Shown here in pieces: positions 47,603 to 61,611 of a stretch of DNA of 64,000 bases (positions are counted from its first letter, which is position 1; each line of letters begins with the position of its first letter). The notes under the pieces were generated by a model. It made no database searches, was not told the origin of the DNA, and worked only from the letters and a program-made list of their open reading frames with translations. The stretch lies in assembly GCF_015354405.1 (NCBI RefSeq), contig NZ_JADKYP010000002.1:1-64000 (forward strand), given 5' to 3'. The translations under genes were made by a program, and so were the position numbers. This DNA comes from Nocardia sp. BSTN01. Lineage in GTDB: Bacteria; Actinomycetota; Actinomycetes; Mycobacteriales; Mycobacteriaceae.

Positions 47603-47688
47603 GTCCGGGTGGCGGAATGGCAGACGCGCTAGCTTGAGGTGCTAGTGCCCTATTAACGGGCGTGGGGGTTCAAGTCCCCCTCCGGACA
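47603..47688 (+). tRNA. tRNA-Leu(GAG)
   Basis: 86 bases with a class II variable arm. Acceptor arms GTCCGGG (47603-47609) and TCCGGAC (47681-47687), anticodon stem CTAGC/GCTAG with loop TTGAGGT, anticodon GAG, and T arm GGGGGTTCAAGTCCCCC. CCA is not encoded. It reads CUC/CUU leucine codons. Confidence 0.97.
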
Positions 47689-47708
47689 CTGTGTGTAACT
47701 CGGAGTTA

Positions 47709-47742: not shown

Positions 47743-47876
47743 TTTTCCGTGATTCTATCGAGTCGGACGGACTCCGTGGGGCGATCCGCTCATCTCGTCG
47801 CCTGCCGTCGCGCATCGTCCTTCACTGCGTCGGGTGTCGTAGGCTCGAGCGGACGAATCACCCGGAGGAGTTGACT

Positions 47877-48488
47877 GTGACGGTATCGAATCCCGGCGCG
47901 CATCCGCGGATCTCGGCCGAGGAGTTTCTGGGGACCGAGCCCGACGCCTTCAGCAGTACATTCGGCGACGTCGAGATCATCGACGGCACCGTCGTACGGC
48001 TGATGGCCCAGAGCGAGGCGCGCAGCCGCGTCGTTCGCCGACTGGGAGCAGCACTGGAAGACGCTCGCGACCCCGCCGGTCCGTGCCTGCGGGTCGGCTC
48101 CGACGTCGCCGTCCGGTTCCCCGACGCGGACGATCGCCGATCCGACCACCGGCTCAACGTCCGCTATCCGGACATCTTCGTCCGCGATTGCGAACCGTAT
48201 GACGTCAACACCGTGCGCGACCACATCGCCCTCATTGTTGAAGTCGTCTCCAAGACCACCATCGACACGGACACGAGCGACAAACACAAGCTCTACGCAC
48301 GCTCCGGAATACCCGCATACCTGATCGTCCACTTCGACAAGAGCTGGGAGACCATCGACCGCATCGAGGAGTACCGCCTCGACTGGTCCGGACTGCGATA
48401 CATGCCTCATAAGGTCCATCGCACGGCGCTGGTTCTCGACACCCCGGTCATACTCGCCATCACCTTCGACGCACTCCACCGCCCCTGA
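47877..48488 (+). CDS. Uma2-family putative endonuclease (DUF820)
   Basis: 203 residues from GTG 47877, with GGAGGAG upstream. The PD-(D/E)xK-type nuclease fold is visible: EIIDGTVVRLM, VRYPDIFVRD, LIVEVVSKTTIDTD and KLYARSGIPAYLIV. Uma2 proteins are common in actinobacteria and cyanobacteria and have no established cell function; the active-site Asp/Glu/Lys layout is inferred from the family. No partner gene is adjacent. Confidence 0.85.
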   Translation: MTVSNPGAHPRISAEEFLGTEPDAFSSTFGDVEIIDGTVVRLMAQSEARSRVVRRLGAALEDARDPAGPCLRVGSDVAVRFPDADDRRSDHRLNVRYPDIFVRDCEPYDVNTVRDHIALIVEVVSKTTIDTDTSDKHKLYARSGIPAYLIVHFDKSWETIDRIEEYRLDWSGLRYMPHKVHRTALVLDTPVILAITFDALHRP

Positions 48489-48687
48489 CCCCGGCCACAG
48501 ACGGAAAGCCACATCCCGCGCCCGCGAAATCATCGGCGATGCCGTTCGTCACCTGCCGCGCCTGCACGCCGTCGTCACCCGGCCACGAAACCACCGGCGT
48601 CCCGGTTGGCGGGGTGCATGACGAAATTCCAGTTCGAGGGCGGGGTGCCGCGGGCCGAATGATGTACGCGACGTTGGGTTTTCGTGA

Positions 48688-51285
48688 TCAGACCGCGGAC
48701 AGAAGGACGTCGTCGAACTTGTCGACGGCCTCGTTGTATCGGATCTCGAAGCCTTTCATCACGGCTGCCTCGAGCACGGTGGTCTCGACGTCCTGCGGCT
48801 TGCGGGGCGACGGATTTCCCGGCGAATTCTCGTAGTAGAAGACGATGACGTCGAGGTAGACGGGTTTGCGCAGACGGCGTGGGCCGAGCCGGGCGATCAG
48901 CGCGGCGGCCACTGCCGGGTACGGAGTGAACTCCGGATCCTCGAGCCATTGGACGAGGTCGTCTCTCGGCACGCTGAAGTCCACGCCGACGGCTTCGAGG
49001 GTCGTGATCAGATGGGGCGCGTGTGGCACGGGGGCCTCACCCGCGGCCGTGATCGCGAACGGTGCGTGGTTCCACCCCTGATCCGGAGCTGCGTCCCACC
49101 ACTGTGTGGCGATCGCTCCGTCCGGGCGTACCCAGAACACGTCGAGGTGGCGAGCGAGACGAGCGGCGCAGGTGATCGGTGATGCCGGATCGGCGGAGCC
49201 CGGGGGTGCGACCGGAAAGGCGCTGTGATCGGCCCAACCGTGCGCCGGGGCTCCGTGCCACCACTGAGTTCCGATGGACCCGTCCGGAGCCACCCAGAAC
49301 ACATCGAGGTTGATCGGCGTGCGCGCCGTCGCCGTGATACCGCCCTCTGCGACCGCACCCGCGGAAGTGATCGCGAACGAACCGTGGTCGGCCCAGCTGT
49401 GCCCGGGTGCCGCGTGCCACCACTGGCTGCGAATCGATCCGTCCGGTCCGACCCAGTACACATCCAGGTTGTCCGGAGTGCGTGCCACGACAGCGAGCGG
49501 GGATCCCGCTCGGGCGGACCCGGCCGGCGCGACGGCGAAGGCCCCGTGATCGGCCCAGCTGTGGCCCGGCGCCACATGCCACCACTGGCTGCGAATCGAT
49601 CCGTCGGGTCCGATCCAGTACACGTCGAGGTTGTCCGGAGTGCGGGCGACGACCGCCAGAGCCGACCCGGGCTCTGCCGAGCCGGCCGGCACGATCGGGA
49701 AGGCTCCGTGATCGGCCCAGCTGTGGCCCGGCGCCGCATGCCACCACTGAGTACATACGGCACCGTCCGGGGCGACCCAGAACACGTCGAGGTTGTCGGC
49801 GGTGCGCGCGAGCGCCGCCACCGGACCGCCGGGCCGCATGGCGCCGGCGGGCGTGATCGGGAACGACCCGTGGCTGCCCCAGGCTGCGTCGGGTGCCGAC
49901 CACTGAGTCGTGACGGCGCCGTCCGCGCCACCCCAGAAGGCGTCGAGGTGGTTCGGCTCACGTGCTACTGCCGCGACGGCCGACCCTGCCGGCGCGGCAC
50001 CCGCCCCCGCGATGTTCACCACACCATGGTCGCCCCAACTCTCGTGCGGCGCGATGTCCCACCACTGCCATCCGACCGCTCCGTCACGGCGCGGCCAGAA
50101 CACGTCCAGCCGATTGCTTTCGGGCGCAAGCACACTCAGCCCGGACGACGCCGCAGCCCGAAGGTTCGCCGGCGGATCGTCGGTCGGATTGCGGCCGAGT
50201 ACGTCGTTCCAGATATAGCGGTAGTACGGGTTCTCCTGGTCCATCGCCATATAGCGAGCGCTGCGGTCGGTGCCGCCGAACCATTGGTCCACGATGGCGC
50301 CCTGTTGCTCGGCGTTGAACGCCGACCAGTCCGGACCTACCGAGCCATACTGATAGACGTTGTCGCCCATGGTGTACTGCGCTTGGTTGACCATGCCACT
50401 GCACATGAGTGCCGGCAGAAAGCCGGTGTGTGCGATCTGCCAGGCATGTGCGAGCTCGTGGATGAGGAGCTGCCCCGGCTTCGGATAGGACTTGCCGCCG
50501 GGGCCGAGCGGGTTGTCGTAGCCGTTGCCCAGGTTGCAGTAGGTCTTGCCATCGATGCCGGGCGCGGTGAAGGCGCGTCCGCCCAGGCCGGCAAGGTTGG
50601 TGATGAGCACCTTGTCGTACGGCATCGAGTTGCCGTAGACCTGACGGGCGAACCTGATCTCGGCGTCGTTGAGCGGCCGGTACTTGATGAGCGCGTTGGT
50701 GACCGCGCCGACGGCGACGCCCGCGACGATGCCGAGGACGATCGCGCCGCCGATCCCGGCACCGGCGGCGGCCGCGACCGCGAACACGACGACTCCCCCG
50801 ACGACACCGAGGGTGCCGCCGGGTCCGAGTGTCGCGCCCAGCCAGTCGATCGCCTCCCTGGTCGCACCGATCACGACACCGAGCGCGGCGCCGGCGACAC
50901 CGGCCGCGACATCGACCACATCTTCGACCAAGTCTTCGAGTGTTCCGACGACGCCGCCCCACTTGTAGTCCTTGGCGACGCCGTAGGTGGGTGCGGCCTG
51001 TAGCTGCAGCCAGTACAGCGCGAGCAGAGGGTTGTGGCCGTGTTCTTCGCGGTCCCAGCTGTCGACTCCGGAGACGTGTCCGCTCTGTACGAATGCCATC
51101 GTGGGAAAGCCGGGCGCCGTGAGATAGGCGCGCAGGTTGAAGTCGAAGTTCCCGAGAATGCTGCTCGAGTGGGTGTGGAATTTGACGAAGTAATCGCCGT
51201 TGTCGCTGACTTCTACATGGACCGAACCACCGAGCGGCGTGCCCGGCGGCGTGATGATGGGGCGGTCGAAAGTGAGAGTTGCCAT
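48688..51285 (-). CDS. Putative HExxH metallopeptidase fused to a seven-bladed lectin-like beta-propeller
   Basis: 865 residues from ATG 51285 (GGAGG upstream). Residues 1-110: small beta-rich region. Residues 124-200: Gly/Ala/Val-rich hydrophobic stretch. Residues 205-340: metallopeptidase-like domain with IHELAHAWQIAH at 275-286 (HExxH plus a third histidine at the metzincin position) and FNAEQQGAIVDQWF. Residues 382-755: seven repeats of about 53 residues, each with LDVFW, DGSI, QWWH, W-DHG motifs, a propeller as in PLL/PHL-type fucose lectins. Residues 760-865: an unidentified C-terminal domain. No signal peptide. A palindrome shared with the subtilase operon lies 89 bases upstream. Confidence 0.82.
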   Translation of the reverse strand: MATLTFDRPIITPPGTPLGGSVHVEVSDNGDYFVKFHTHSSSILGNFDFNLRAYLTAPGFPTMAFVQSGHVSGVDSWDREEHGHNPLLALYWLQLQAAPTYGVAKDYKWGGVVGTLEDLVEDVVDVAAGVAGAALGVVIGATREAIDWLGATLGPGGTLGVVGGVVVFAVAAAAGAGIGGAIVLGIVAGVAVGAVTNALIKYRPLNDAEIRFARQVYGNSMPYDKVLITNLAGLGGRAFTAPGIDGKTYCNLGNGYDNPLGPGGKSYPKPGQLLIHELAHAWQIAHTGFLPALMCSGMVNQAQYTMGDNVYQYGSVGPDWSAFNAEQQGAIVDQWFGGTDRSARYMAMDQENPYYRYIWNDVLGRNPTDDPPANLRAAASSGLSVLAPESNRLDVFWPRRDGAVGWQWWDIAPHESWGDHGVVNIAGAGAAPAGSAVAAVAREPNHLDAFWGGADGAVTTQWSAPDAAWGSHGSFPITPAGAMRPGGPVAALARTADNLDVFWVAPDGAVCTQWWHAAPGHSWADHGAFPIVPAGSAEPGSALAVVARTPDNLDVYWIGPDGSIRSQWWHVAPGHSWADHGAFAVAPAGSARAGSPLAVVARTPDNLDVYWVGPDGSIRSQWWHAAPGHSWADHGSFAITSAGAVAEGGITATARTPINLDVFWVAPDGSIGTQWWHGAPAHGWADHSAFPVAPPGSADPASPITCAARLARHLDVFWVRPDGAIATQWWDAAPDQGWNHAPFAITAAGEAPVPHAPHLITTLEAVGVDFSVPRDDLVQWLEDPEFTPYPAVAAALIARLGPRRLRKPVYLDVIVFYYENSPGNPSPRKPQDVETTVLEAAVMKGFEIRYNEAVDKFDDVLLSAV
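49021..50142 (-). repeat. Seven tandem ~160-bp repeats encoding propeller blades
   Basis: Residues 382-755 of the gene at 48688 divide into seven blades. The two central blades (about 49380-49620) are nearly identical in DNA as well as protein, both reading ARTPDNLDVYW then GPDGSIRSQWWH, which suggests recent duplication or gene conversion. Confidence 0.85.
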
Positions 51286-51373
51286 CTCGTGTACCTCCGT
51301 AACGGTGAGCCCGAGGCCGAGCCCCCGGGAAGGGCTATCGGCCAAGGCTGCACCGTCGCGCAGGATCCGGATA

Positions 51374-51389
51374 GAGTAGGCGTCTACTC
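51374..51389. promoter_or_regulatory. Palindrome upstream of the propeller-peptidase gene
   Basis: GAGTAGGCGTCTACTC: arms GAGTAG and CTACTC around GCGT. It lies 89-104 bases before the ATG of the minus-strand gene. The same palindrome, differing in one spacer base, lies before the subtilase operon at 53487. Confidence 0.7.
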
Positions 51390-51500
51390 GTTCCTGTGCG
51401 GCGCTGACCAGCACCTACACGGATTCACTGCCTTCCGCCCCATCGCTACCGGAATCCTCCATTTCTCCGGCCGCAGCGACATCGCCTGTTCATCGATCTC

Positions 51501-52940
51501 CTACTTCGGACTCGTCGCCGCCTTGTCCGTCTGCGGAGCCAGCTTGCGCATCAGTTCGAGTAGTTCACGTTGCTCGGCGTCGGTGAGCGGCTCCGAGGCG
51601 TCCCTCGGCATGCCATCGGAAGCGCTGCCGCCCGTGAGTCCGATCGGCTGGACGGCGCTCACGCTCAGGGGTGCGCCGGCCTCGGCGGGCCGCAGTGCGG
51701 CGATGTCCGCGGCGGTGAGCGTGCTGTCGACGTGCGCGGGTTCGCGGCCGCACAGCCGGATGAGCTGGTGCAGATCACCGTCGAATTTGTCGACGCAGGA
51801 GGTGTGCTGAGTGCCGACGACGGCATCCGAGGCGAACTGCAGTACCTTCGGCTTCCGCCCGGACATGGATTTCCAGCCTGCCTGGAAGTCGGTCACGCCC
51901 TGGTATTGCTCCTTGAAGGGGCGGGGAGCGCCGGATCCGCCGTAGTTGCTGTTCCAGATGTCGTAATCGCCGGTGAGCGTGTCTCCGTAGAGCCACCTCG
52001 GCGCATACGCGATGACGTAGCCGACGGCGTTGTGTGCCGTCATCCGTGTCCGCAGTGCTTCCACCGCGCGGCGTATCTCATCGGGGTTGGGTGGGCGGGG
52101 CATCGGCTGGGATCGCTCGGCGTCGATCTGCCAGATCCACGGGACGTCTTTCCACCACGGGGTTTTCTCATCGACGTAGTCCATCCAGAAATTCACCTGC
52201 CGCTCGATATTGTCGGGCCACAGGAAGTGATACGCGCCGAGGACGGGAATCTCGGCACCGCGTGCCCGTTCCAGCGCGTCCTGGAAGTGTGCGGCCCGCC
52301 AATCGCTGCCCTCTGTCGATTTGTGGGTGAAGAACGAGATGCCGTCGCGGCGGGCGGCAACGAGGTTCATGGGACCGCGATCCCAGTCGTAGTCCGAGGC
52401 GTCCCATCCCCAGACCGGGGCGGTGTTCGCCACGCCGACGGGCGTGGCGGCCGCGCCTCCGACGACATCCGGATGGACCCGATCCGGCGCGGATTCGCCC
52501 GCTCGCTGTTCCAGTCGTGTCATCAGATCCGCCGAGGTCGCCCAATGGACGTGGTCGAAGTGCCCGATGGCCTGTGGACCGCCATACACGCTGCCACCCG
52601 GATTTTTGACCTGGTTCTTGACGTAGAAGCCGTTGTCGTCGCTGAACGGTGTCGAGTGGATCAACTCGACGGTGAAGTCCGCGTAATTGTCGTAGAGCCA
52701 TTTGGCGAAGTCGCGCATCTTCACGGCTCCCGCCGGCGTGAGACCACCGGCCCCGATGTCCAGGGCCGCGGTGGGCGAACCGGAGTATGTCAGACCGTAG
52801 TGATGTGACACGGCTCCGTGGTCACCGTCCATTCCGCTGGTGATGTAGATGTCGTCGGCGTGGGGGTAGCGCTCCAGGAACTTCGCCATCCGGTTCCCGA
52901 GCGGACCGGTGACGACACCTTGCCATCGCGCAATAGCCAT
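51501..52940 (-). CDS. Two-domain cell-wall lysin: M15-like peptidase plus GH25 muramidase
   Basis: 479 residues from ATG 52940 (GGAGG upstream). Residues 30-135 resemble an M15-type zinc peptidase: SHHYGL, ALDIGAGG, then VELIHSTPF and GHFDHVH give His-Asp-His ligands. Residues 176-375 are a GH25 lysozyme: WGWDASDYDWDRG, FFTHKSTEGSDWR, GAYHFLWPDN and WIWQIDAE with the DxE acid pair (D273, E275). A Ser/Glu-rich tail follows. The order resembles phage endolysins. No signal peptide and no holin gene nearby. Together the two domains would cut peptide and glycan of peptidoglycan. Confidence 0.86.
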   Translation of the reverse strand: MAIARWQGVVTGPLGNRMAKFLERYPHADDIYITSGMDGDHGAVSHHYGLTYSGSPTAALDIGAGGLTPAGAVKMRDFAKWLYDNYADFTVELIHSTPFSDDNGFYVKNQVKNPGGSVYGGPQAIGHFDHVHWATSADLMTRLEQRAGESAPDRVHPDVVGGAAATPVGVANTAPVWGWDASDYDWDRGPMNLVAARRDGISFFTHKSTEGSDWRAAHFQDALERARGAEIPVLGAYHFLWPDNIERQVNFWMDYVDEKTPWWKDVPWIWQIDAERSQPMPRPPNPDEIRRAVEALRTRMTAHNAVGYVIAYAPRWLYGDTLTGDYDIWNSNYGGSGAPRPFKEQYQGVTDFQAGWKSMSGRKPKVLQFASDAVVGTQHTSCVDKFDGDLHQLIRLCGREPAHVDSTLTAADIAALRPAEAGAPLSVSAVQPIGLTGGSASDGMPRDASEPLTDAEQRELLELMRKLAPQTDKAATSPK

Positions 52941-53589
52941 ACTCGGCCTCCTCCGTGAGAAGTGACGGGTTGTGGTCGACGACTCGGGTGATCGGATGTG
53001 TCGATACCGATGCGTCGCGTGCCGTCGGGGAATTAATTGCCGCACTGTTTTCGATGTGAACCGGGAATACGCCCGGCATGGGATTGGATATGCCGGTTTC
53101 GGTCGGAATTCGCCCAGGATCTGAATGGATCACACGCGATACGGCGAGCCCTACGTCGCTCGCCCGGTATTCTCCGATCCCCGTACCATCGGGATCCGAT
53201 ACGCAAAGGTAGTCCGACGACCTCCGTCGTCGACTTGCCCGCTCATCCTCGTTTGAAATGAGGACCGCAGCCACAATTGTAGGCGAACCGCATGAGGCGG
53301 CGCGCGGAGTTGGAGCAATCCAGAAGTCCCGTCTACGCATGGCATTTCGCCCGTCATCGGGGCCCAGACCGTATGCGCTGGAGATTCCCCTGGCGTGGGA
53401 CGGCTGGTCCCTGTCGACCCTGCGAGGGCGTTTGAATTCGTTGCGCTAAGTATTGATCAGGGTCGGCCCATGGCATTTCTCGATTTCGAGTAGGCGACTA
53501 CTCGCGCAATTGCATACTTGTGTGAATAGATTCGTCTCTCTGAGGGCCTGTTCGGTCGGCCGGTCGGCGAAAAGAGGAGGGCGGTGACG
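52941..53589. other. Long divergent intergenic region with palindrome
   Basis: About 650 bases between the lysin (minus) and subtilase (plus), lower in GC than its surroundings. No frame has a credible start and protein. It contains the 16-base palindrome at 53487, an AATTGCATACTTG-like A/T-rich stretch after it that may hold the plus-strand promoter, and GAGGAGG before the subtilase start. Confidence 0.55.
53487..53504. promoter_or_regulatory. Palindrome upstream of the subtilase operon
   Basis: CGAGTAGGCGACTACTCG: arms CGAGTAG and CTACTCG around GCGA. It ends 86 bases before the subtilase ATG. Fifteen of the 16 core bases equal the palindrome at 51374, in a matching position to its own gene. 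Confidence 0.7.
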
Positions 53590-55044
53590 ATGGACCCGCA
53601 GCGACCCCGTTTCGATCCGAGGGATCTCTACGGATCGGTGATCGCCGCCCCATTGCTCGCGGACATGCGCGAGCAGCCCGCGTCCACCCTTCACCGGGTG
53701 GTGATCGACCTGCATTACGGTTACCCGGCGGGGCGGCCGGCCGCGGCGCGGGCTGTGCGCGGCTACATCGGGCGCGCCACCGACACGTCCGACGACCAGT
53801 CGGGAGTGGATGACGGGCTCGCCCAGTACGTGCTCGCCCGCCTGTCCGCGGACGCCATCCGCGAGGTGGTACGCCTCGACCGCGCGGCTGCGGATGCCGG
53901 GACCGGGCGTGCCATCTATCGAATCTGGCCGGATTTCGGAATCGGCCCGCTGATGAACCGATCAGCGGCCACGGTCAAGGCCGACGCCGCCCATGCGTCG
54001 TTCACCGCGCGCGGGGCCGACATCGTGTGGGCGGTGATCGACTCCGGAATCGACGGCCGTCATGGGCATTTCCGGACGCACGGAACGCTCGAGGTGTCTC
54101 CGCCGGTGCGGCACCTGGATTGCACCGGAGGCAATTCGCCCCTGACCGACGAGTTCGGGCACGGGACACACGTCGCGGGCATCATCGCCGGCGAGGGCAT
54201 CGGAACCACCGCACAACCGCTGAAGGCGGTACGCGCCGAGATCGACGGCAACGATGACGTGCACTACCGCGCCGAACCGGTCACCCGCATGTCCGCGATG
54301 GCGCCCCTGTGCCGCCTGGTCAGCTACAAGGTCCTCGACAGCGACGGCGACGGTCAGACCAGCTCGATCATGGCCGCCCTCAAGGATATTCAGGAAATCA
54401 ACAACCACGGCCGCGACATCAAGATCCACGGCGTGAACTTGTCGGTCGGCTACCCGTTCGACCCGAAATGGTTCGCCTGCGGCGAAAGTCCGGTGTGCCA
54501 GGAGGTGACGCGGCTCGTCCAGTCGGGAGTGGTGGTCGTCGTCGCGGCCGGAAATACCGGATACGGATACAACCTCGACTTCGTGAAGGGAAATGTCGCC
54601 GCGGGACTGGACCTGACGATCAACGACCCCGGCAACGCGGAGATGGCGATCACCGTCGGTTCCACCCACCGCGATATGCCACATCGTTACGGGATCTCGT
54701 ACTTCTCCTCGAAGGGGCCGACCGGCGACGGGCGCGCCAAACCCGACCTCGTCGCACCGGGCGAGCGGATCCTCTCGTGCGCGACCGGCCGGGCGCTTGC
54801 CGACATCGAGGCCAAGGGCGATGTCACCGGACCTGTCGACTACGTCGAGGACAGCGGAACGAGCATGGCCGCGGCCCACGTCTCCGGGGTCGTCGCCGCA
54901 TTCCTGTCGGTGCGGCGGGAATACATCGGAGAACCGGGGGCGATGAAAACCATCTTCACCGGCACCGCCACCGATCTGGGCCGGATGACGAACTTCCAGG
55001 GACACGGCCTGATCGATCTGATGCGGGCCATCCAATCCGTGTAG
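53590..55044 (+). CDS. Subtilisin-like (S8) serine peptidase without signal peptide
   Basis: 484 residues from ATG 53590 (GAGGAGG nine bases upstream; GTG 53584 is possible). Catalytic residues are in place: Asp151 in AVIDSGID, His191 in GHGTHVAG, oxyanion Asn322 in VAAGNTG and Ser425 in SGTSMAAAH. Residues 30-120 (VVIDLHYGYPAG to YRIWPDFGIG) form a propeptide-like N-domain. No leader peptide, which is rare for subtilases and suggests intracellular action or release by an unusual route. The alpha/beta hydrolase gene follows after 52 bases. Confidence 0.9.
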   Translation: MDPQRPRFDPRDLYGSVIAAPLLADMREQPASTLHRVVIDLHYGYPAGRPAAARAVRGYIGRATDTSDDQSGVDDGLAQYVLARLSADAIREVVRLDRAAADAGTGRAIYRIWPDFGIGPLMNRSAATVKADAAHASFTARGADIVWAVIDSGIDGRHGHFRTHGTLEVSPPVRHLDCTGGNSPLTDEFGHGTHVAGIIAGEGIGTTAQPLKAVRAEIDGNDDVHYRAEPVTRMSAMAPLCRLVSYKVLDSDGDGQTSSIMAALKDIQEINNHGRDIKIHGVNLSVGYPFDPKWFACGESPVCQEVTRLVQSGVVVVVAAGNTGYGYNLDFVKGNVAAGLDLTINDPGNAEMAITVGSTHRDMPHRYGISYFSSKGPTGDGRAKPDLVAPGERILSCATGRALADIEAKGDVTGPVDYVEDSGTSMAAAHVSGVVAAFLSVRREYIGEPGAMKTIFTGTATDLGRMTNFQGHGLIDLMRAIQSV

Positions 55045-55096
55045 CGGCGAGCGGCGCCGACCGCCTTCGACCGCCAGAGCAGAAGGGGCCACGACG

Positions 55097-56422
55097 ATGA
55101 ACGACCTATCCGGCTTTCCGAGTGCGGAAGTGCAGTTCGACCGCGATGCCGGAGTGGTCGGCAGCACCGACAACCTGCTCGGCCTCGCCACCGACCCGGC
55201 GGTGACCGACCTGATGGTCGTCAGCCACGGGTGGAACAACGACATGAGCGAGGCGCGACAGCTCTACAGCAGACTCGCCGCGTCGTTGCGCACCGTCCTC
55301 GACTCCGGCGCCGTCGCCGGACTCGCGGACCGTTCGATCGGGATCGCGGGGGTGCTCTGGCCGTCGAAGAAGTTCGCCGAGACCGACCTCGTCCCCGGTG
55401 GAGCCGCCGCGGCCGCCTCCCCGATCGATGGCGGACGTCTGCTCGCCCAGATCGAGGATCTGCGGGATCTGTTCCCCGACGCCGCGGCGCAGCAGACTCT
55501 CGACGCCGTCTCCGCACTCGTTCCCACCTTGCAGGACAAGAGCAGCGCCCGTACGGCCTTTGCCGATCACCTGCGGTCACTGCTCGACCGGGCCGCCGCC
55601 GATCCCGAGGACGCCTCCACCGATCTGTTCACTCAGCCGGGCGGCATCATCATGGATCGGCTGGCGGTCCCGGTGTCCCTGGCACCGCCGCGGCAGGTGA
55701 CCGGTGGGGCCGCCGCGCTGGGCCCGGCCGCCGACGCGCGTCGTGGCACAGTCGGCGGCGCCGCCGGTCTCGGCAGCCTGCTCGGCGGGGTCATGGGAGC
55801 GGCTCGCAATCTGCTGAACTTCACCACCTACTACGAGATGAAGACCCGATCGGGCCGCATCGGCGAACACGGTCTCGCCCCGGTGATCGCCCACGCCCAC
55901 AAGACACGTCCCGAACTACGTGTGCACCTGGTGGGCCACAGCTTCGGTGGCCGCTTGGTCTCCGCCACCGCCAAGGCGCTGCCCGACGAGGACACCTTGT
56001 CGACGCTGACCCTGCTCCAGGCGGCGTTCTCGCACTACGGATTCGCCGAGAACTGGACACCCGGGCAATCCGGATTCTTCCGGAATGTCGTCAGCGACAA
56101 GAAGGTCACCGGTCCGGTCCTGATCACCGACACCGCCAACGACCGGGCCGTCGGCATTGCCTACGCCATCGCCTCACGGATCGCCGGTCAGGTCGCGGCC
56201 GCGGTCGGCGACGCCGACGACATCTACGGCGGCCTCGGCCGAAACGGTGCCCAGAAGACCCCGGAGGCGATTTCCGCACAGCTCCTGGACACGGGAGGCC
56301 GGTACGCCTGGAACGCCCGTGCCCTGCACAATCTGCTCGCCGACCGCTTCATCACCAGCCACTCCGACGTCACCGGCCTTCAGGTCGCCTACGCACTACT
56401 GTCCGCCCTCTCAACCACGTGA
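55097..56422 (+). CDS. Alpha/beta hydrolase (lipase/esterase-like)
   Basis: 441 residues. MVVSHGWNND near residue 40 gives the oxyanion strand and HLVGHSFGGRLVSA the nucleophile Ser282; candidates for the acid and histidine are ITDTANDRAVG and FITSHSDV. Between them is a long helical, Ala-rich insert (residues 110-250) with a Gly-rich hydrophobic segment (LGSLLGGVMGAA), a possible lid or membrane contact. No signal peptide. It is the second gene of the subtilase operon and probably acts on a lipid or ester; the substrate is unknown. Confidence 0.78.
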   Translation: MNDLSGFPSAEVQFDRDAGVVGSTDNLLGLATDPAVTDLMVVSHGWNNDMSEARQLYSRLAASLRTVLDSGAVAGLADRSIGIAGVLWPSKKFAETDLVPGGAAAAASPIDGGRLLAQIEDLRDLFPDAAAQQTLDAVSALVPTLQDKSSARTAFADHLRSLLDRAAADPEDASTDLFTQPGGIIMDRLAVPVSLAPPRQVTGGAAALGPAADARRGTVGGAAGLGSLLGGVMGAARNLLNFTTYYEMKTRSGRIGEHGLAPVIAHAHKTRPELRVHLVGHSFGGRLVSATAKALPDEDTLSTLTLLQAAFSHYGFAENWTPGQSGFFRNVVSDKKVTGPVLITDTANDRAVGIAYAIASRIAGQVAAAVGDADDIYGGLGRNGAQKTPEAISAQLLDTGGRYAWNARALHNLLADRFITSHSDVTGLQVAYALLSALSTT

Positions 56423-56491
56423 GTGGCGAACGTACAGCGCGGGTGGGGCCGAGGACGGCCGGACTGTGGCCGAATCGCACGTGAAACTCGC

Positions 56492-58207
56492 CTATCGCGT
56501 CGGCTCGGTGCCGTCGGAGTGTTCGTCCACATCGGGGAGGTCCGCGACCGCCGCCGTCACGGTCGGATACAGCCCGACCGGTGTCGCCTGCGCTTGCGCG
56601 GTGCCGAGCGTGTCACCGAACTGGCCGATCGAGCGGGCGATGCGGAAGTCGATGTGGCGCCGGCCCAGATCGTCGCGCAGGTCCGCCAGCATCGCCGCGG
56701 CGGTGACGTCGATACTCGGCGAGGTCTCGGCGTCGAGCACGACCAGCCGGGTCCGGTCGGTGCACAATTGCTCGATCCGTCCGCGCACATAGTCGGCGTT
56801 GGCGAAGAACAGGCCCGACTCGACCCGCACCACCACGAGGTCGGGGCGCTGGGTCAATTCCGGATGCCGGTCCGCGTCCAGCCACAGCGTGCCCGACCGC
56901 ACCACGGGCGCCACATGCGGACGGGACGTGCGATACACCAGCAGCAGCATGGAGATGCCGATGCCGATCAGCAGGCCCGGCAGCGTATCGAACAGCAGGA
57001 CGCCGATCATCGCCGCGACGGCTGCGGCGAAGTCGGCGCGGGCGGCCTTACCGTAGATTCCGCCGAGTCGCTGCGTCCACACCCGATACAGCCGGCGCAG
57101 CGCCGCGAAGTCGACCAGCTCGATCACCGCCGCGATCACCACACCCGCCAGCGTCGCCTCGGGCAGGTTCTCGAACAGACCGGTGAGGAAAAGAAGGGTC
57201 AGCACGGTCAGCGCCGCCACCACCAGCCCACTGCCCTGTGATTTGGCCCCCGCCGAGCCGTTGACGGCGGTTTTGGACAGGCTGCCGTTCACGACCATGC
57301 CCGACGCCAGCCCGGCGCCCAGATTCGCCGCGCCCAGTCCGAGCAGTTCGCGGTTGACGTCGATCTGGTAACCCGCTTGGGCCGCATAGGTTTTCGCCGC
57401 GCCGAGGCCCTCGGCGAAGCCGATCAGCAGCACGCCGACCGCGGGCCCCAGCAGATCGATGTAGTCGCTGACATCGAGTCCGTCCGGAAGCCCCAGCGCC
57501 GGCAGGCCCGAGTCGATGTGGCCGACGATGGCCACGCCACGCTCGTCCAGATCGAGCACGGCGACCGCGCCGATCCCGACCAGCACGGCGAGCAGCGAAC
57601 CGGGTACCAGCGGCAGCCAGCGCTTCACAACCAGCACGATCGCCAGGCTCACGACACCGACCACCACGGTCCGCCATTGCGCATCGCCGAGATGACGCAG
57701 CACATCCCAGGCCTGTTCGAAGAAATTGCCCTCATGTTTAGGGATGCCGAGCAGTTTCGGTACCTGGCCGATGATGATCGTCAACGCCAGCCCGATGATG
57801 AAACCCTTCAGCACCGGTTCGGAGATGAACGCCGCGACGAAGCCGAGCCGGATCGCGCCCGCGATCAGGCCCACGATTCCGGTGGCGATGGCGAGCCCCG
57901 CCGACAACGCGATATAGCGGCCGCCGTCGGCACCCGCCATCGGCGTCACGATCGCCGCCGACAATGCCGCGGTCGCCGACATGGGCCCGACCACCAGATG
58001 GCGGGAGCTGCCCGCCAGCGCGTACAGCACCAGCGACGGCACGGCGGCGTAGAGACCCACCACCGGCGGCACACCCGCGATCGACGCGTAGGCGAGTGCT
58101 TCCGGCACCAGAACCGCCCATACCGTGAGGCCGGCGACGACATCGGCACGCAACCATTGCGGGCGATATCCCGCCAAGGACTCGAATATCACCCAGCGTG
58201 CCGCCAC
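56492..58207 (-). CDS. SulP-family anion transporter with STAS domain
   Basis: 571 residues from GTG 58207 (GGTGGAGG upstream); the frame reaches 58246. About eleven to fourteen helices carry SulP marks: GLTVWAVLVPEALAYASIAG, VVGPMSATAALSA, and VNRELLGLGAANLGAGLASG. The last 110 residues are a STAS domain (VVVRVESGLFFANADYVRG to IDVTAAAML). It imports sulfate, bicarbonate or a similar anion. It converges on the hydrolase operon and has no evident link to it. Confidence 0.9.
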   Translation of the reverse strand: MAARWVIFESLAGYRPQWLRADVVAGLTVWAVLVPEALAYASIAGVPPVVGLYAAVPSLVLYALAGSSRHLVVGPMSATAALSAAIVTPMAGADGGRYIALSAGLAIATGIVGLIAGAIRLGFVAAFISEPVLKGFIIGLALTIIIGQVPKLLGIPKHEGNFFEQAWDVLRHLGDAQWRTVVVGVVSLAIVLVVKRWLPLVPGSLLAVLVGIGAVAVLDLDERGVAIVGHIDSGLPALGLPDGLDVSDYIDLLGPAVGVLLIGFAEGLGAAKTYAAQAGYQIDVNRELLGLGAANLGAGLASGMVVNGSLSKTAVNGSAGAKSQGSGLVVAALTVLTLLFLTGLFENLPEATLAGVVIAAVIELVDFAALRRLYRVWTQRLGGIYGKAARADFAAAVAAMIGVLLFDTLPGLLIGIGISMLLLVYRTSRPHVAPVVRSGTLWLDADRHPELTQRPDLVVVRVESGLFFANADYVRGRIEQLCTDRTRLVVLDAETSPSIDVTAAAMLADLRDDLGRRHIDFRIARSIGQFGDTLGTAQAQATPVGLYPTVTAAVADLPDVDEHSDGTEPTR

Positions 58208-58332
58208 CTGTCCTCCACCCGTCCACCGGACCGGTCTCCCGATCACAGACCGTCGTTGCCACTCGGCAGCGACGCTAACGACGGTGGCGGCGGGCGCGCG
58301 TCACACGTGGCGGGTGAATTCGCGGTCGGCGC

Positions 58333-59145
58333 TCACACCTTCCTGCCGACCGCGCCGTACAGCGAGACCTTCTTGTCGTGGTCGGCGGGATGTTCGATGC
58401 CCTCCTGCCGCCACCGGTGAATCACCTCGACACCCGGCTCGACGAGTTCGAGGCCGTCGAAGAAGCGGGCGACCTCGTCGCGGCTGCGCGGGCGCACCGG
58501 AATGCCCTGATCCGAATACACCTGCAGCAGGCGGCCCATCCCGTCGGGATCGTTGGCGCCGTTGTCGAAATCCGTGGTGACATGGCTCATCGCGAGATAC
58601 GAGCCGGGGGCCAGCGCGTCCATCAGCGTGTTCACCATGGCGTAGACGTCGCCTGGGACGAAGTGGACCACCGCCATGAGCGAAATCGCCACCGGCTGTG
58701 ACAGATCCAGGGTGTCGCGGAGTTCGCGGGAGCCGAGGATCGCCTCGGGGTTCGCGGCGTCGGCCTGCACATAGGTGGTGCGGCCTTCGGGCGCGCTCAC
58801 CAGCAGGGCCCGCGCGTGCGCGAGCACGATCGGATCGTTGTCGACGTACACCACCCGCGATTCGCACGCCTGTTCCTGCGCGACCTGGTGCAGATTGGGT
58901 TCGGTCGGGATCCCGGTGCCGATGTCGAGGAACTGGCGCACGCCCTGCTCGGCGAGATAACGCGTCGCGGTGCGCATGAATTCGCGGTTGGTGCGTGCGG
59001 TCAGGCGGACCGCCGGGAAGTTCGCGAGAGCGGTCTCGGCGGCACGGCGGTCGGCCTCGTAGTGGTCCTTGCCGCCGAGAAAGTAGTCGTACATACGGGC
59101 GGGGTGTGCCACATCGGTGCGGAGGTCGACCGGATGATCGGACAC
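58333..59145 (-). CDS. SAM-dependent methyltransferase, DUF574 (PF04672) family
   Basis: 270 residues from GTG 59145 (GAGGAG upstream). The family start PARMYDYFLGGKDHYEADR is present; the SAM site is FLDIGTGIPTEPN, then VVYVDNDPIVLAHARALL. Such methyltransferases are very abundant in actinobacteria, often in many copies, with mostly unknown targets. It may be co-transcribed with the genes around 59236-60834. Confidence 0.9.
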   Translation of the reverse strand: MSDHPVDLRTDVAHPARMYDYFLGGKDHYEADRRAAETALANFPAVRLTARTNREFMRTATRYLAEQGVRQFLDIGTGIPTEPNLHQVAQEQACESRVVYVDNDPIVLAHARALLVSAPEGRTTYVQADAANPEAILGSRELRDTLDLSQPVAISLMAVVHFVPGDVYAMVNTLMDALAPGSYLAMSHVTTDFDNGANDPDGMGRLLQVYSDQGIPVRPRSRDEVARFFDGLELVEPGVEVIHRWRQEGIEHPADHDKKVSLYGAVGRKV

Positions 59146-59235
59146 GGGAAGGCTCCTCGCGGGGTCGGAAACGTATCGCCGATATATAGCGCATACGGGC
59201 CAATTCGGCAGCGGGACGGCGTAATTCGTGCGCGA

Positions 59236-59520
59236 TCAGGCCGGAGCGGAGTCGTCGGGCGGGAGCCGGGGCGACCGCGCATCCGGCCCGGCGTCGTGCG
59301 CCGGGCCGATGCGCGGGTCGGCGAAGATCTCGGCGGTATCCGAGACCGCCGCCGCTCGCGTCGCGGCCGCATCGCTCACCCGCAGCGCGTACAGGTGCTG
59401 CTCCGGGTCCACCGCGACGAGGCCGTAGTCGAGGTCGACCTCGGCCTCGGTGAGGTGCAGTTCGCGCAGCGCCGCCGCCAAGGTGGGGTCGTTGGCGAGC
59501 CGGACGGTGAGCAGCGGCAT
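59236..59520 (-). CDS. Small protein resembling the propeptide region of the adjacent subtilase
   Basis: 94 residues from ATG 59520, nine bases after the subtilase stop, so translationally linked. Residues 29-71 (DLDYGLVAVDPEQ, then LYALRVSDAAATR and AEIFADPRI) parallel residues 37-94 of the subtilase N-domain (DLDHDFAPLSV, then GVAGVFADPRI). Stand-alone propeptide-like proteins can bind and inhibit subtilases. The C-terminal 25 residues are Pro/Asp-rich. I infer a cognate inhibitor or folding helper; this is not shown. Confidence 0.62.
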   Translation of the reverse strand: MPLLTVRLANDPTLAAALRELHLTEAEVDLDYGLVAVDPEQHLYALRVSDAAATRAAAVSDTAEIFADPRIGPAHDAGPDARSPRLPPDDSAPA

Positions 59521-59529
59521 GGTTCCACG

Positions 59530-60834
59530 CTACGCGCGGATCTCGGTGTTCTTCAGCTCCGCCAGCAGGGCGGCGGCGTCGACCACACCGAATCCGTAGT
59601 CGTAGTCGAATCCGCCGGGCTGCGCGGTCGCGGTGCGCCGCAACAGATCTCGCAGCTGCGCCGGGGCCAGCTTGCTCGCCGGGTAGACGGTCCGGATCGC
59701 CGCGACCAGTCCCGCGGCGACCGGGCAGGCGGCCGACGTGCCGGTATCGGGTTCCTTCGCGCCGAACACCGTGGACCCGAGGAAGTGGGTGTAGCTGCAG
59801 ATGTCGGGTTTGCGATCGGACAGCCGGCCCGGCCCCTGCGAGGAGTAGCCGACGCGCTGCCCCTTGGTGTCCGCGCCGCCGATGCTCAGCACACTCGGAT
59901 GCGAATTCGCGCCGCCTATCGGCCGATCCTGGTAGGCGCACCGCCCATCCGGGCAGTCGCGGCCGCAGTTGCCCGCGGCGAACAGGATGTCGGCCCCGGC
60001 CGATTCGAGCGAGCCGACGATCACATTGAACGGGTGGGACGGATTGTCGGAGTAGTTGCCGGGCTGCCCCACCGGGAAGTCCCAGTCCGGGGAGAACGCG
60101 CCCCAGCTGTTGCTGATCACCAGCGTGCGGGTGGCCTCCGGCTGATCGGTGAGCACGGTGCGCAGATGGGCGTAGGCGGCCAGCGCGTCCGAGAGCAGCC
60201 CGTCCATGGTGGAGCCGCCGCGAGTCTTGCTCTGCAACACCGGAATATCGAGCAGGGTGGCGTTCGGCGCGCCGATGAGGGTGTCGAACGCGCACATCGA
60301 TCCGTGGTCGACCGGGAACTGTCCGGCGGTGCCGCTCACTCCCGGCGGATTCCAGCTGCGCGTCGCGTCGACGGTCACCGGCCCGCCCCGCGCCTGCTCG
60401 ACGCGGGCGGCGTTGATCCCGGTGTCGACGATCGCCACCGCGACGGATTTTCCGTCCATTCCCCCGGCGGCCAGATCGCCGGTGTGCAACAGGGTTTGGA
60501 CGTCGTGCCAGGTGCCGACCGCCGGATCGCCGCCGCAGGTGAGGTTCGTCTCGATCCGCGGGTCCGCGAAAACGCCTGCCACGCCGCGGGTTCCGGTCAG
60601 GCGCGCCACCGTGGCGTCGAGGTCGCCGTCGGGGATCTGCCCGCGCACCACCACCGAACCCGCGCCCGCCTGTTCGGCGGCCGCCGTATCGGGGACGGAC
60701 AGCGGTGCGAAGTCGTGGTCGAGGTCGAATTCCGGCAAATCCCCGGCGACATCGGCCGGGGCCACCGCAACGGCCGGATCGGCAACTGCGGCAATCAGTT
60801 CGGCGGAGGGACGGAGTTGGATGAGTGCGCGCAT
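59530..60834 (-). CDS. Second subtilisin-like (S8) peptidase, leaderless
   Basis: 434 residues from ATG 60834; the frame extends to 61050 but that part is Arg/Pro-rich and non-coding in appearance. Catalytic residues: Asp137 in AIVDTGIN, His177 in VDHGSMCAFD, Asn289 in FAAGNCG, Ser367 in DTGTSAACPVAAG. Cysteine pairs around NCGRDCPDGRC may stabilise it or bind metal. The first 100 residues form a propeptide-like domain ending in GVFADPRIETN. No signal peptide. It is followed by a small protein of similar propeptide type. Confidence 0.86.
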   Translation of the reverse strand: MRALIQLRPSAELIAAVADPAVAVAPADVAGDLPEFDLDHDFAPLSVPDTAAAEQAGAGSVVVRGQIPDGDLDATVARLTGTRGVAGVFADPRIETNLTCGGDPAVGTWHDVQTLLHTGDLAAGGMDGKSVAVAIVDTGINAARVEQARGGPVTVDATRSWNPPGVSGTAGQFPVDHGSMCAFDTLIGAPNATLLDIPVLQSKTRGGSTMDGLLSDALAAYAHLRTVLTDQPEATRTLVISNSWGAFSPDWDFPVGQPGNYSDNPSHPFNVIVGSLESAGADILFAAGNCGRDCPDGRCAYQDRPIGGANSHPSVLSIGGADTKGQRVGYSSQGPGRLSDRKPDICSYTHFLGSTVFGAKEPDTGTSAACPVAAGLVAAIRTVYPASKLAPAQLRDLLRRTATAQPGGFDYDYGFGVVDAAALLAELKNTEIRA

Positions 60835-61086
60835 ACCAGCCATCCTGCCGTCAACCGCCGCGAATTTCTCGCCGATTGCCGGAACGGACTGTTCACCGGG
60901 CCGGCGAGCGCCCGAATCCACGTCCACGAGAGCTCGCAAACCCGCCCGCCGCCGGCCACGGCCGAAAACCATCTGCCTCACCCGTCGATGCGGACTCGGT
61001 TCCGGCAGATGATTTCCGGCTGCTTCGACGACCGAAATCGTGGCGTTCAACCCGGCGGATGCGCGAGGCAGGCCGGCGCGGGATCG

Positions 61087-61611
61087 TCAGTTGAAATTGT
61101 TGGAGAAGCCGAAGGCGAAGCTGTGGCCTTTCGCGGTGCAGGTGACCTCGGCACGCATGCTGCCTGCGACGCAGGTGGTCCCCGCGTAGGTGATGCTGCC
61201 GTCCTCGCCGTAGGCCTGGCCAGGGCCGGGGCTGGTGCCGCTGAGTTGGAGGCTGCCGGGTTGCCCGTGCGTGCCGAGCGGGCCGAGGGCCGGGTGGGCG
61301 GGCAGGAACGGTAGATCGATCGAGACGTTGGTCACCGGGATGCCGAACCAGGTGATCGGCGCGCCGATCGAATCGCAGCCGACGTTGCCGTTCGACTCGA
61401 TGGCGCAGTTGGCCATGTTGTTGTAGCTGAAATACACCGTCCCGTTGGTCAGATAGCCCGACGGATCCACCGGAACAGCAGCATTCGCCACGCCGGTACC
61501 GGACGTCGACACCGCAACGGCAGCCACGGCGGTCGCGGCGAGCGCGGCACCGGCGCGGACAAGGCCACCCGGAGACAACCGTCGGCGAGACACTGCCAGC
61601 TCGTCCATCAT
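61087..61611 (-). CDS. Secreted protein of unknown function
   Basis: 174 residues from ATG 61611 (GGAGG six bases upstream). Signal peptide: basic RRRLSPGG, then AGAALAATAVAAVAVSTSG and a likely cut after GVANA. The mature part has cysteines in NCAIES, GCDSIG, TTCVAG and VTCTAKG, suggesting two disulfides, with the closing pattern TYAGTTCVAGSMRAEVTCTA and GHSFAFG seen in many small secreted actinobacterial proteins. No function known. Confidence 0.75.
   Translation of the reverse strand: MMDELAVSRRRLSPGGLVRAGAALAATAVAAVAVSTSGTGVANAAVPVDPSGYLTNGTVYFSYNNMANCAIESNGNVGCDSIGAPITWFGIPVTNVSIDLPFLPAHPALGPLGTHGQPGSLQLSGTSPGPGQAYGEDGSITYAGTTCVAGSMRAEVTCTAKGHSFAFGFSNNFN

Follow-up and report, generated by a model that had tools for sequence, protein, structure and literature searches.

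Protease-activated effectors are already known among pores, in the form of gasdermins, and among nucleases (PMC12799240). There, MBL proteins of the family found in Lamassu, Avs1, and DRT systems are described as pro-nucleases; a partner protease releases their activity when it cuts disordered insertions. In fungi, gasdermins are controlled by proteases of the subtilase and CHAT types (PMC10989679). The T6SS effector VgrG2b carries a C-terminal metallopeptidase domain that kills bacteria from the periplasm. Its HExxH motif is required for killing, and the domain is reported to lack peptidoglycan hydrolase activity (PMC6899460).

The region considered here belongs to Nocardia sp. BSTN01. The window, by which we mean the whole 64,000-nucleotide stretch that was analyzed, comes from a 7.8-Mb assembly of 206 contigs that is 99.65% complete. 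An earlier note had pointed to a run of leaderless hydrolases there and had read them as a set that may be released together against other cells. As a whole, that observation is confirmed and its interpretation is partly supported. The cluster is a neighborhood of three independent modules, not one system. One of these, the operon at 53584-56422, accounts for most of the finding and may encode a cytoplasmic pair in which a protease gates a lipase-like death effector; we give this reading a probability of about 0.5.

Five apparently leaderless hydrolases and an 8.0-kb insertion

All of the listed genes are present as open frames at their given positions, with GC3 of the coding type. The hydrolase genes are real, as the note had held, and Pfam recognizes two S8 subtilases and a GH25 domain among their products. 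Are the enzymes truly leaderless? Starts were set from the N termini of relatives for the propeller protein (51285), the lysin (52940), and subtilase-2 (60843), and the signal-peptide call rests on hydrophobicity, taken as the top 12-residue stretch within the first 60 residues. This value lies between 0.63 and 1.78 in the propeller protein, the lysin, subtilase-1, and the alpha/beta hydrolase. In subtilase-2, read from 60843, it reaches 2.07 at residue 16, within a propeptide-like region and broken by an Asp; we judge that this stretch is not a signal peptide, and the call is the least certain of the five. None of the five hydrolases therefore has an evident signal peptide. The protein encoded at 61087-61611 scores 2.36, with a long hydrophobic N-terminal stretch, and looks secreted.

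Four of the five genes form one block of about 8.0 kb (48491..56487), since four close relatives (G035, G102, G037, and G002) have an empty site between the tRNA/Uma2 side and a sulfate permease gene. To the left of the site lie a tRNA-Leu (gag) gene (47603..47689, plus strand) and, as its left flank, a gene for a putative Uma2-type endonuclease (47871..48488, plus strand; PF05685, 2.6e-16), the start of which was inferred from a relative in L071. The break is clean in G035, where Uma2 is retained; Uma2 is also absent from G102 and G037 and mostly absent from G002. The sister species Nocardia kruczakiae (G078) carries the insertion, with 92.9% identity over 48648-58500. At 51-55 kb the GC content is about 64%, below most of the window. 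A tRNA-guided island was considered and set aside, as no copy of the tRNA-Leu 3' end of at least 12 bases occurs up to 56.6 kb. Nor did a comparison of the insertion borders reveal shared repeats of at least 10 bases, and no integration mechanism is marked. Beyond the insertion come the sulfate permease gene (PF00916, 7.9e-95), an S-adenosyl methyltransferase gene (58333-59145; PF04672), a gene for a 94-residue protein, and subtilase-2, all of them resident neighbors. A PF04672 methyltransferase stands at the same place in L071, L082, and L083. The insertion itself carries two modules: the lysin with the peptidase-lectin protein, and subtilase-1 with the alpha/beta hydrolase.

How often do these genes travel together? 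Among 119 Nocardia genomes, the window's own included, subtilase-1 occurs in 9, the alpha/beta hydrolase in 10, the lysin in 3, and subtilase-2 in 51. The full peptidase-propeller protein, or its peptidase domain, is found in two, while the propeller or the C-terminal part alone was matched in eight further genomes. The earlier note had itself made conservation of the whole neighborhood the test of its proposal; the genes proved to be scattered, and the complete order occurs in only 2 of the 119 genomes, those of the window and N. kruczakiae. Outside these two sisters, only two couples recur together, subtilase-1 with the hydrolase and subtilase-2 with the 94-residue protein.

Subtilase-1 and its lipase-like partner

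Subtilase-1 (53584..55044, plus strand) consists of an N-terminal region that by eye resembles a propeptide and an S8 catalytic domain (PF00082, 1.4e-39; PADLOC "subtilase," 1.4e-49). Its partner is a lipase-like alpha/beta hydrolase (55097..56422, plus strand) whose Ser282, Asp349, and His422 do not vary across 58 hydrolase sequences. Together they look like an intracellular module. A scan of the genomes of 84,980 species with the subtilase core gave 231 relatives, of which the best 80 were kept. A hydrolase profile finds the partner downstream in 75 of these 80 loci; the exceptions are L099, which reaches a contig end, L151, L159, L163, and L167. The two genes share a strand in all 75 pairs, at a median distance of 16 nt (no more than 30 nt in 58 and no more than 150 nt in 72). 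The two proteins also diverge in step, the distance matrices of 50 loci giving a Mantel r of 0.68 that none of 2,000 permutations equaled. Because the 80 loci are the closest relatives by design, the pairing rate may drop further out. Nonetheless, all nine subtilase-bearing Nocardia genomes have the hydrolase, and seven of the nine lie outside the 80. In a draw of 296 genomes from the phylum, eight besides the window's carry the subtilase and seven of these the hydrolase; three of the eight were already among the 80, and among the new ones the partner is present in four of five.

The hosts span Actinomycetota, Pseudomonadota, Bacteroidota, Acidobacteria, Gemmatimonadetes, Verrucomicrobia, Chloroflexi, Nitrospira, and others. 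Within these groups the distribution is patchy (9/119 Nocardia genomes, 9/296 genomes of the phylum, and 1/251 genomes of the Pedobacter family), and the pair is also borne on plasmids of Rhizobium, Sinorhizobium, and Rhodococcus. Five of 24 plasmid records matching the subtilase were inspected; in three the partner is the hydrolase, in one an MBL protein, and one holds a TIR fusion. Two pattern matches to viral relatives of subtilase-1 were followed up, and neither was confirmed. N-terminal sensor domains were sought on the subtilases as well: in the 72 of the 80 that were scanned, Pfam sees the S8 domain in every one, with a single stray match besides, and Mrr_N falls slightly under its cutoff in L072. 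The literature matches listed contain no description of the subtilase-hydrolase pair. The hydrolase receives no confident name from Pfam, where alpha/beta-hydrolase matches stay below threshold, or from NCBIfam, PHROGs, or PADLOC; no PADLOC model matches it.

What kind of enzyme is the hydrolase? Its AlphaFold model is a confident one (pLDDT, 90.3; pTM, 0.90). A sequence search against solved structures gave no relative at 0.01, and Foldseek gave no match at an E value of 0.001, the best, at 0.034, being a lipase. Ranked by Z among the Foldseek candidates, the nearest are the DDHD domain of Nir2 (14.4), the Tle3 lipase (13.5), and Bacillus LipA (13.3). With so many ties at a Z of 13 to 14, the fold label stops at "lipase-like."

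Two loops of this model are of special interest for the proposed gating. Loop 1 (residues ~91-110; pLDDT, 59 to 61) holds a GGAA motif at residues 101-104 (55397..55408, plus strand). Loop 2 (residues 201-230; pLDDT, 44 to 54) holds GGAA motifs within residues 203-223 (55703..55765, plus strand) and is in part predicted to be disordered, residues 210-225 alone falling below 50. Both are candidate cleavage sites, since protease sites can take the form of a short conserved word within a loop that is flexible. The 58 sequences, which are related to each other and in which the loop limits were picked after the alignment had been viewed, show G[GAS]A[AGS] in loop 1 in 43 cases (strict [GS]GAA in 34) and GG[AE]A in loop 2 in 51 (strict GGAA in 49). 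Shuffled loops give means of 4.8 and 1.3 for the relaxed and strict forms in loop 1 and 5.2 and 4.6 in loop 2. Strict motifs are found in both loops of 31 sequences and in at least one loop of 52, and in none of the 58 across the remaining 22,613 residues; the relaxed loop 1 pattern also turns up outside the loops in nine. Loop 2 is free to vary in both length and sequence around its motif; loop 1 shows moderate conservation immediately ahead of its own. The motif was also considered as a site of subtilase autoprocessing, a role set aside on finding GGAA in 1 and [GS]GAA in 3 of 72 subtilases. Not all of the hydrolases carry the loops. At eight loci (L100, L101, L111, L113, L118, L120, L129, and L143), in Acidobacteria and Bryobacterales kin and one Arcobacter metagenome-assembled genome (MAG), a short hydrolase of about 300 residues that lacks the helical insert and both loops is still paired with a subtilase, so gating through the loops cannot be universal.

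In the window, the neighbors of the pair are the lysin on one side and the sulfate permease on the other. No IetA-type ATPase gene stands beside subtilase-1, and a phmmer search of the window's frames with a single divergent gasdermin, that of L103, found none. Among the two genes closest to the pair on either side (129 of 143 proteins scanned), PADLOC matched 30 families, and among the sixth and seventh genes, taken as a control (100 proteins), 13; these counts are of families, not of distinct proteins hit, and matches are not clearly denser beside the pair. The control is a weak one because its genes sit in the same 20 kb.

There are a few loci at which one partner has been exchanged or a third has joined. 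On plasmid pCMU01 of Methylorubrum extorquens CM4 (L091, 3278-9953), the gene next after the subtilase encodes an MBL protein of the LmuA/Avs1a/DRT family (2.1e-46, 1.2e-28, and 1.8e-27), and before the subtilase lie genes for a Pycsar cyclase, PycC (2e-220), an E2-like protein, and a TIR effector (2.6e-101). In Pedobacter aquatilis (L103, 8431-12012), a gasdermin (1.2e-78), the subtilase, and the hydrolase stand in a tight row, the gasdermin gene ending 1 nt ahead of the earliest start possible for the subtilase; among the 50 host genomes of the 80 loci that were searched, this is the only one with a gasdermin match. A Rhizobium leguminosarum plasmid (L092, 7656-9614) encodes a subtilase of this family with a TIR domain (PF13676, 2.7e-8) fused to its C terminus. 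Genes for relatives of the hydrolase also line up with those for a CHAT protease and two further, unnamed proteins (L085, 5973-11525, and L087, 10414-14470); such rows occur in G063 and G070. The relatives of this type that were examined (L085 and L019) have no GGAA. The swaps are single cases, but each sets the subtilase, or the hydrolase, in the position of a death effector activated by a protease.

Three smaller observations belong beside these loci. The MBL protein of L091 contains a stretch, FGAAALDGGAPADARIG, that by eye is reminiscent of the hydrolase's GGAA loops. In a Methylophilaceae MAG (L114, 12328-15664), genes for a papain-type protease and a patatin phospholipase, a second protease-lipase couple, lie directly beside the pair. 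Finally, a Rhodopirellula subtilase with no hydrolase (L167, 10867-14871) is followed by a 1,335-residue protein with TPR-S, trypsin, and DNA/RNA nonspecific endonuclease domains.

The lysin module and the resident subtilase

The other module of the insertion lies on the minus strand. Its larger gene (48688..51285) encodes a hydrophobic Gly-rich stretch and a zinc-peptidase domain, followed by a lectin-type beta-propeller and then a module of about 105 residues. The peptidase region is homologous to the effector domain of VgrG2b (PDB 6h56; E value, 6.4e-7), with the HExxH motifs aligned, and the propeller matches a beta-propeller lectin model of NCBIfam at 2.3e-47, which is under that model's cutoff. 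Pfam gave no match at 0.01, hence no VgrG or PAAR carrier domain in the protein. The fusion of a VgrG2b-type peptidase with a lectin-like propeller may be an unusual architecture. The C-terminal module (residues ~762-864) is shared with other proteins of Nocardia, Streptomyces, and Roseateles. It sits at either end of further unnamed proteins (L178, L179, and L182-L185) and is repeated three times in tandem in G081; the three carriers scanned have no Pfam family.

The second gene (51501..52940) encodes a two-domain lysin. Its GH25 lysozyme domain is recognized by Pfam (PF01183, 1.5e-9) and by a PHROG endolysin profile (6.5e-17). The N-terminal domain has no Pfam match and shows, by eye, a His/Asp pattern like that of M15 peptidases. 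A phage origin of the lysin was considered and dropped: two weak matches came up, both of them records of Gordonia phage Bunnybear, with 28.6% identity over 46% of the query.

The third module is resident. Subtilase-2 (59530..60843, minus strand; start reset from 61050) has an S8 domain (Pfam, 5.1e-22) and is directly followed by the gene for the 94-residue protein (59236..59520, minus strand) in all 30 loci checked, drawn from the 51 genomes that bear subtilase-2. The small protein resembles a propeptide or inhibitor, and the word FADPRI occurs both in it and in the N-terminal region of subtilase-2. Its model (mean pLDDT, 71) runs beta-alpha-beta-beta-alpha; the last strand of the beta-alpha-beta-beta-alpha-beta propeptide fold is not seen. 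Pfam gave no match at 0.01, and Foldseek none against the PDB at an E value of 0.001. The subtilase EpiP, at rank 2 with an E value of 0.3, was too weak a match for use. The simplest reading is that the 94-residue protein acts on its own as an inhibitor or as an aid to folding. In the phylum draw, subtilase-2 occurs in 4 of 296 genomes, two of them outside Nocardia, and these two also carry subtilase-1, on other contigs.

Competing readings and known systems

What might these genes do? That all five hydrolases jointly attack other cells, after lysis or via an injection device, gains some appeal from the presence within 12 kb of leaderless enzymes directed at wall, protein, and ester bonds, and from a peptidase that is kin to an antibacterial effector and bears a lectin-like propeller. 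The distribution of the genes largely refutes this idea, which we consider very improbable: the entire set is confined to two sister species, and both subtilase pairs are conserved without the remaining genes. The listed genes do not form a unit either, as the sulfate permease and the methyltransferase lie between the pairs, and the window genome has no match to the sheath family PF04984 (0/1, compared with 3/14 control genomes), which argues against a contractile device. Of the attack on other cells, what stands is its smaller part. Such action is plausible for the lysin and the VgrG2b-like peptidase with its lectin, because the VgrG2b domain kills from the periplasm. Could that be the whole story, with these two proteins an antibacterial pair, released by lysis or some unspecified route, and the subtilase pair a mere passenger of the island? 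The two genes share a strand within the insertion, 215 nt apart, one product being homologous to VgrG2b down to the HExxH and the other a GH25 lysin. Set against this, the downstream ORF list holds no convincing immunity gene and there is no known export route, while G072 has relatives of the lysin without the peptidase, and the peptidase domains of G137 and G191 come without a propeller. We regard this proposal as doubtful.

Subtilase-1 and the hydrolase invite two further explanations. They might be a housekeeping or stress unit with no immune role, the subtilase degrading or maturing the hydrolase. PADLOC matches that are not clearly enriched beside the pair, and many neighbors that look by eye like ordinary genes, would agree with this; a patchy, partly plasmid-borne distribution and the single cases with a gasdermin, a gated-type MBL protein, and TIR would not, and such a unit seems to us rather unlikely. 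The tight two-gene arrangement and correlated divergence would also suit a toxin and its antidote, in which one enzyme removes the other, for example by the subtilase destroying the hydrolase. This is improbable, given that other proteases activate their gasdermin and gated-nuclease partners by cutting and do not destroy them (PMC10989679 and PMC12799240).

The reading as a protease-gated pair builds on the genes and their catalytic residues, the two-gene arrangement seen across many phyla, the few partner swaps, and the GGAA-type loops. Subtilase-1 would be made in the cytoplasm together with its own inhibitory propeptide-like region and would be turned on inside the cell by some trigger, probably infection. 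It would then cut the hydrolase at the two flexible GGAA loops, freeing the active site, and the freed enzyme would damage the cell's own membrane lipids, so that the cell dies or stops growing before the phage can spread. We place this mechanism at about even odds because PADLOC families are not clearly commoner nearby and because, of 50 genomes searched, a single one has a gasdermin; each of the MBL and TIR partners, too, comes from one record. A broader version, that there exists across bacteria an unnamed class of protease-gated lipases, with the subtilase as a switch that can be swapped between effectors and operates those of the gasdermin, gated nuclease, and TIR kinds as well, is more tentative and in our estimate falls somewhat short of even odds. 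Because protease, substrate, and sites are all specified, the prediction is directly testable, and if true it would provide a role for an enzyme family whose member in the window gets no confident database name.

How, then, does the locus compare with described systems? The peptidase-lectin protein shares a homologous HExxH domain with the C-terminal metallopeptidase of VgrG2b (PMC6899460); here, however, the domain is fused to a lectin-like propeller, and no VgrG domain was found in the protein. The lysin's GH25 domain matches PHROG endolysins, like those of phage-type enzymes, whereas no phage gene was recognized near it and its N-terminal domain goes unmatched in Pfam. Subtilase-1 has a distant similarity to the subtilase of IetAS, the antiphage pair of an ATPase and a subtilase (PADLOC IetS, 1.9e-10), but the PADLOC "subtilase" model fits far better and no ATPase gene adjoins it. 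Bacterial gasdermin operons resemble the pair in that a protease stands beside a membrane-damaging effector, as is predicted here, and in L103 gasdermin, subtilase, and hydrolase share one row; the window pair, in contrast, has no adjacent gasdermin, and the usual partner is the hydrolase (75/80 loci).

A likeness also exists to the nuclease-protease pairs of Hachiman, AVAST, Lamassu, DRT, and canu, as described by Tuck et al. 2025 (PMC12799240). They, too, have adjacent protease and effector genes, with an effector that bears conserved sites in two flexible insertions, cutting at such sites being a candidate event here, and L091 pairs a relative of subtilase-1 with an MBL-family protein. The differences lie in the parts: the window's protease is an S8 subtilase, not of the trypsin or caspase type; its effector is an alpha/beta hydrolase, not an MBL-fold nuclease, which is seen in L091 only; and no fused sensor was seen in the window. 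The pair thus looks like a variant of the protease-effector arrangement with a lipase-like effector. If that is true, a lipase-like class spread across many phyla would join the pore and nuclease effectors under one principle.
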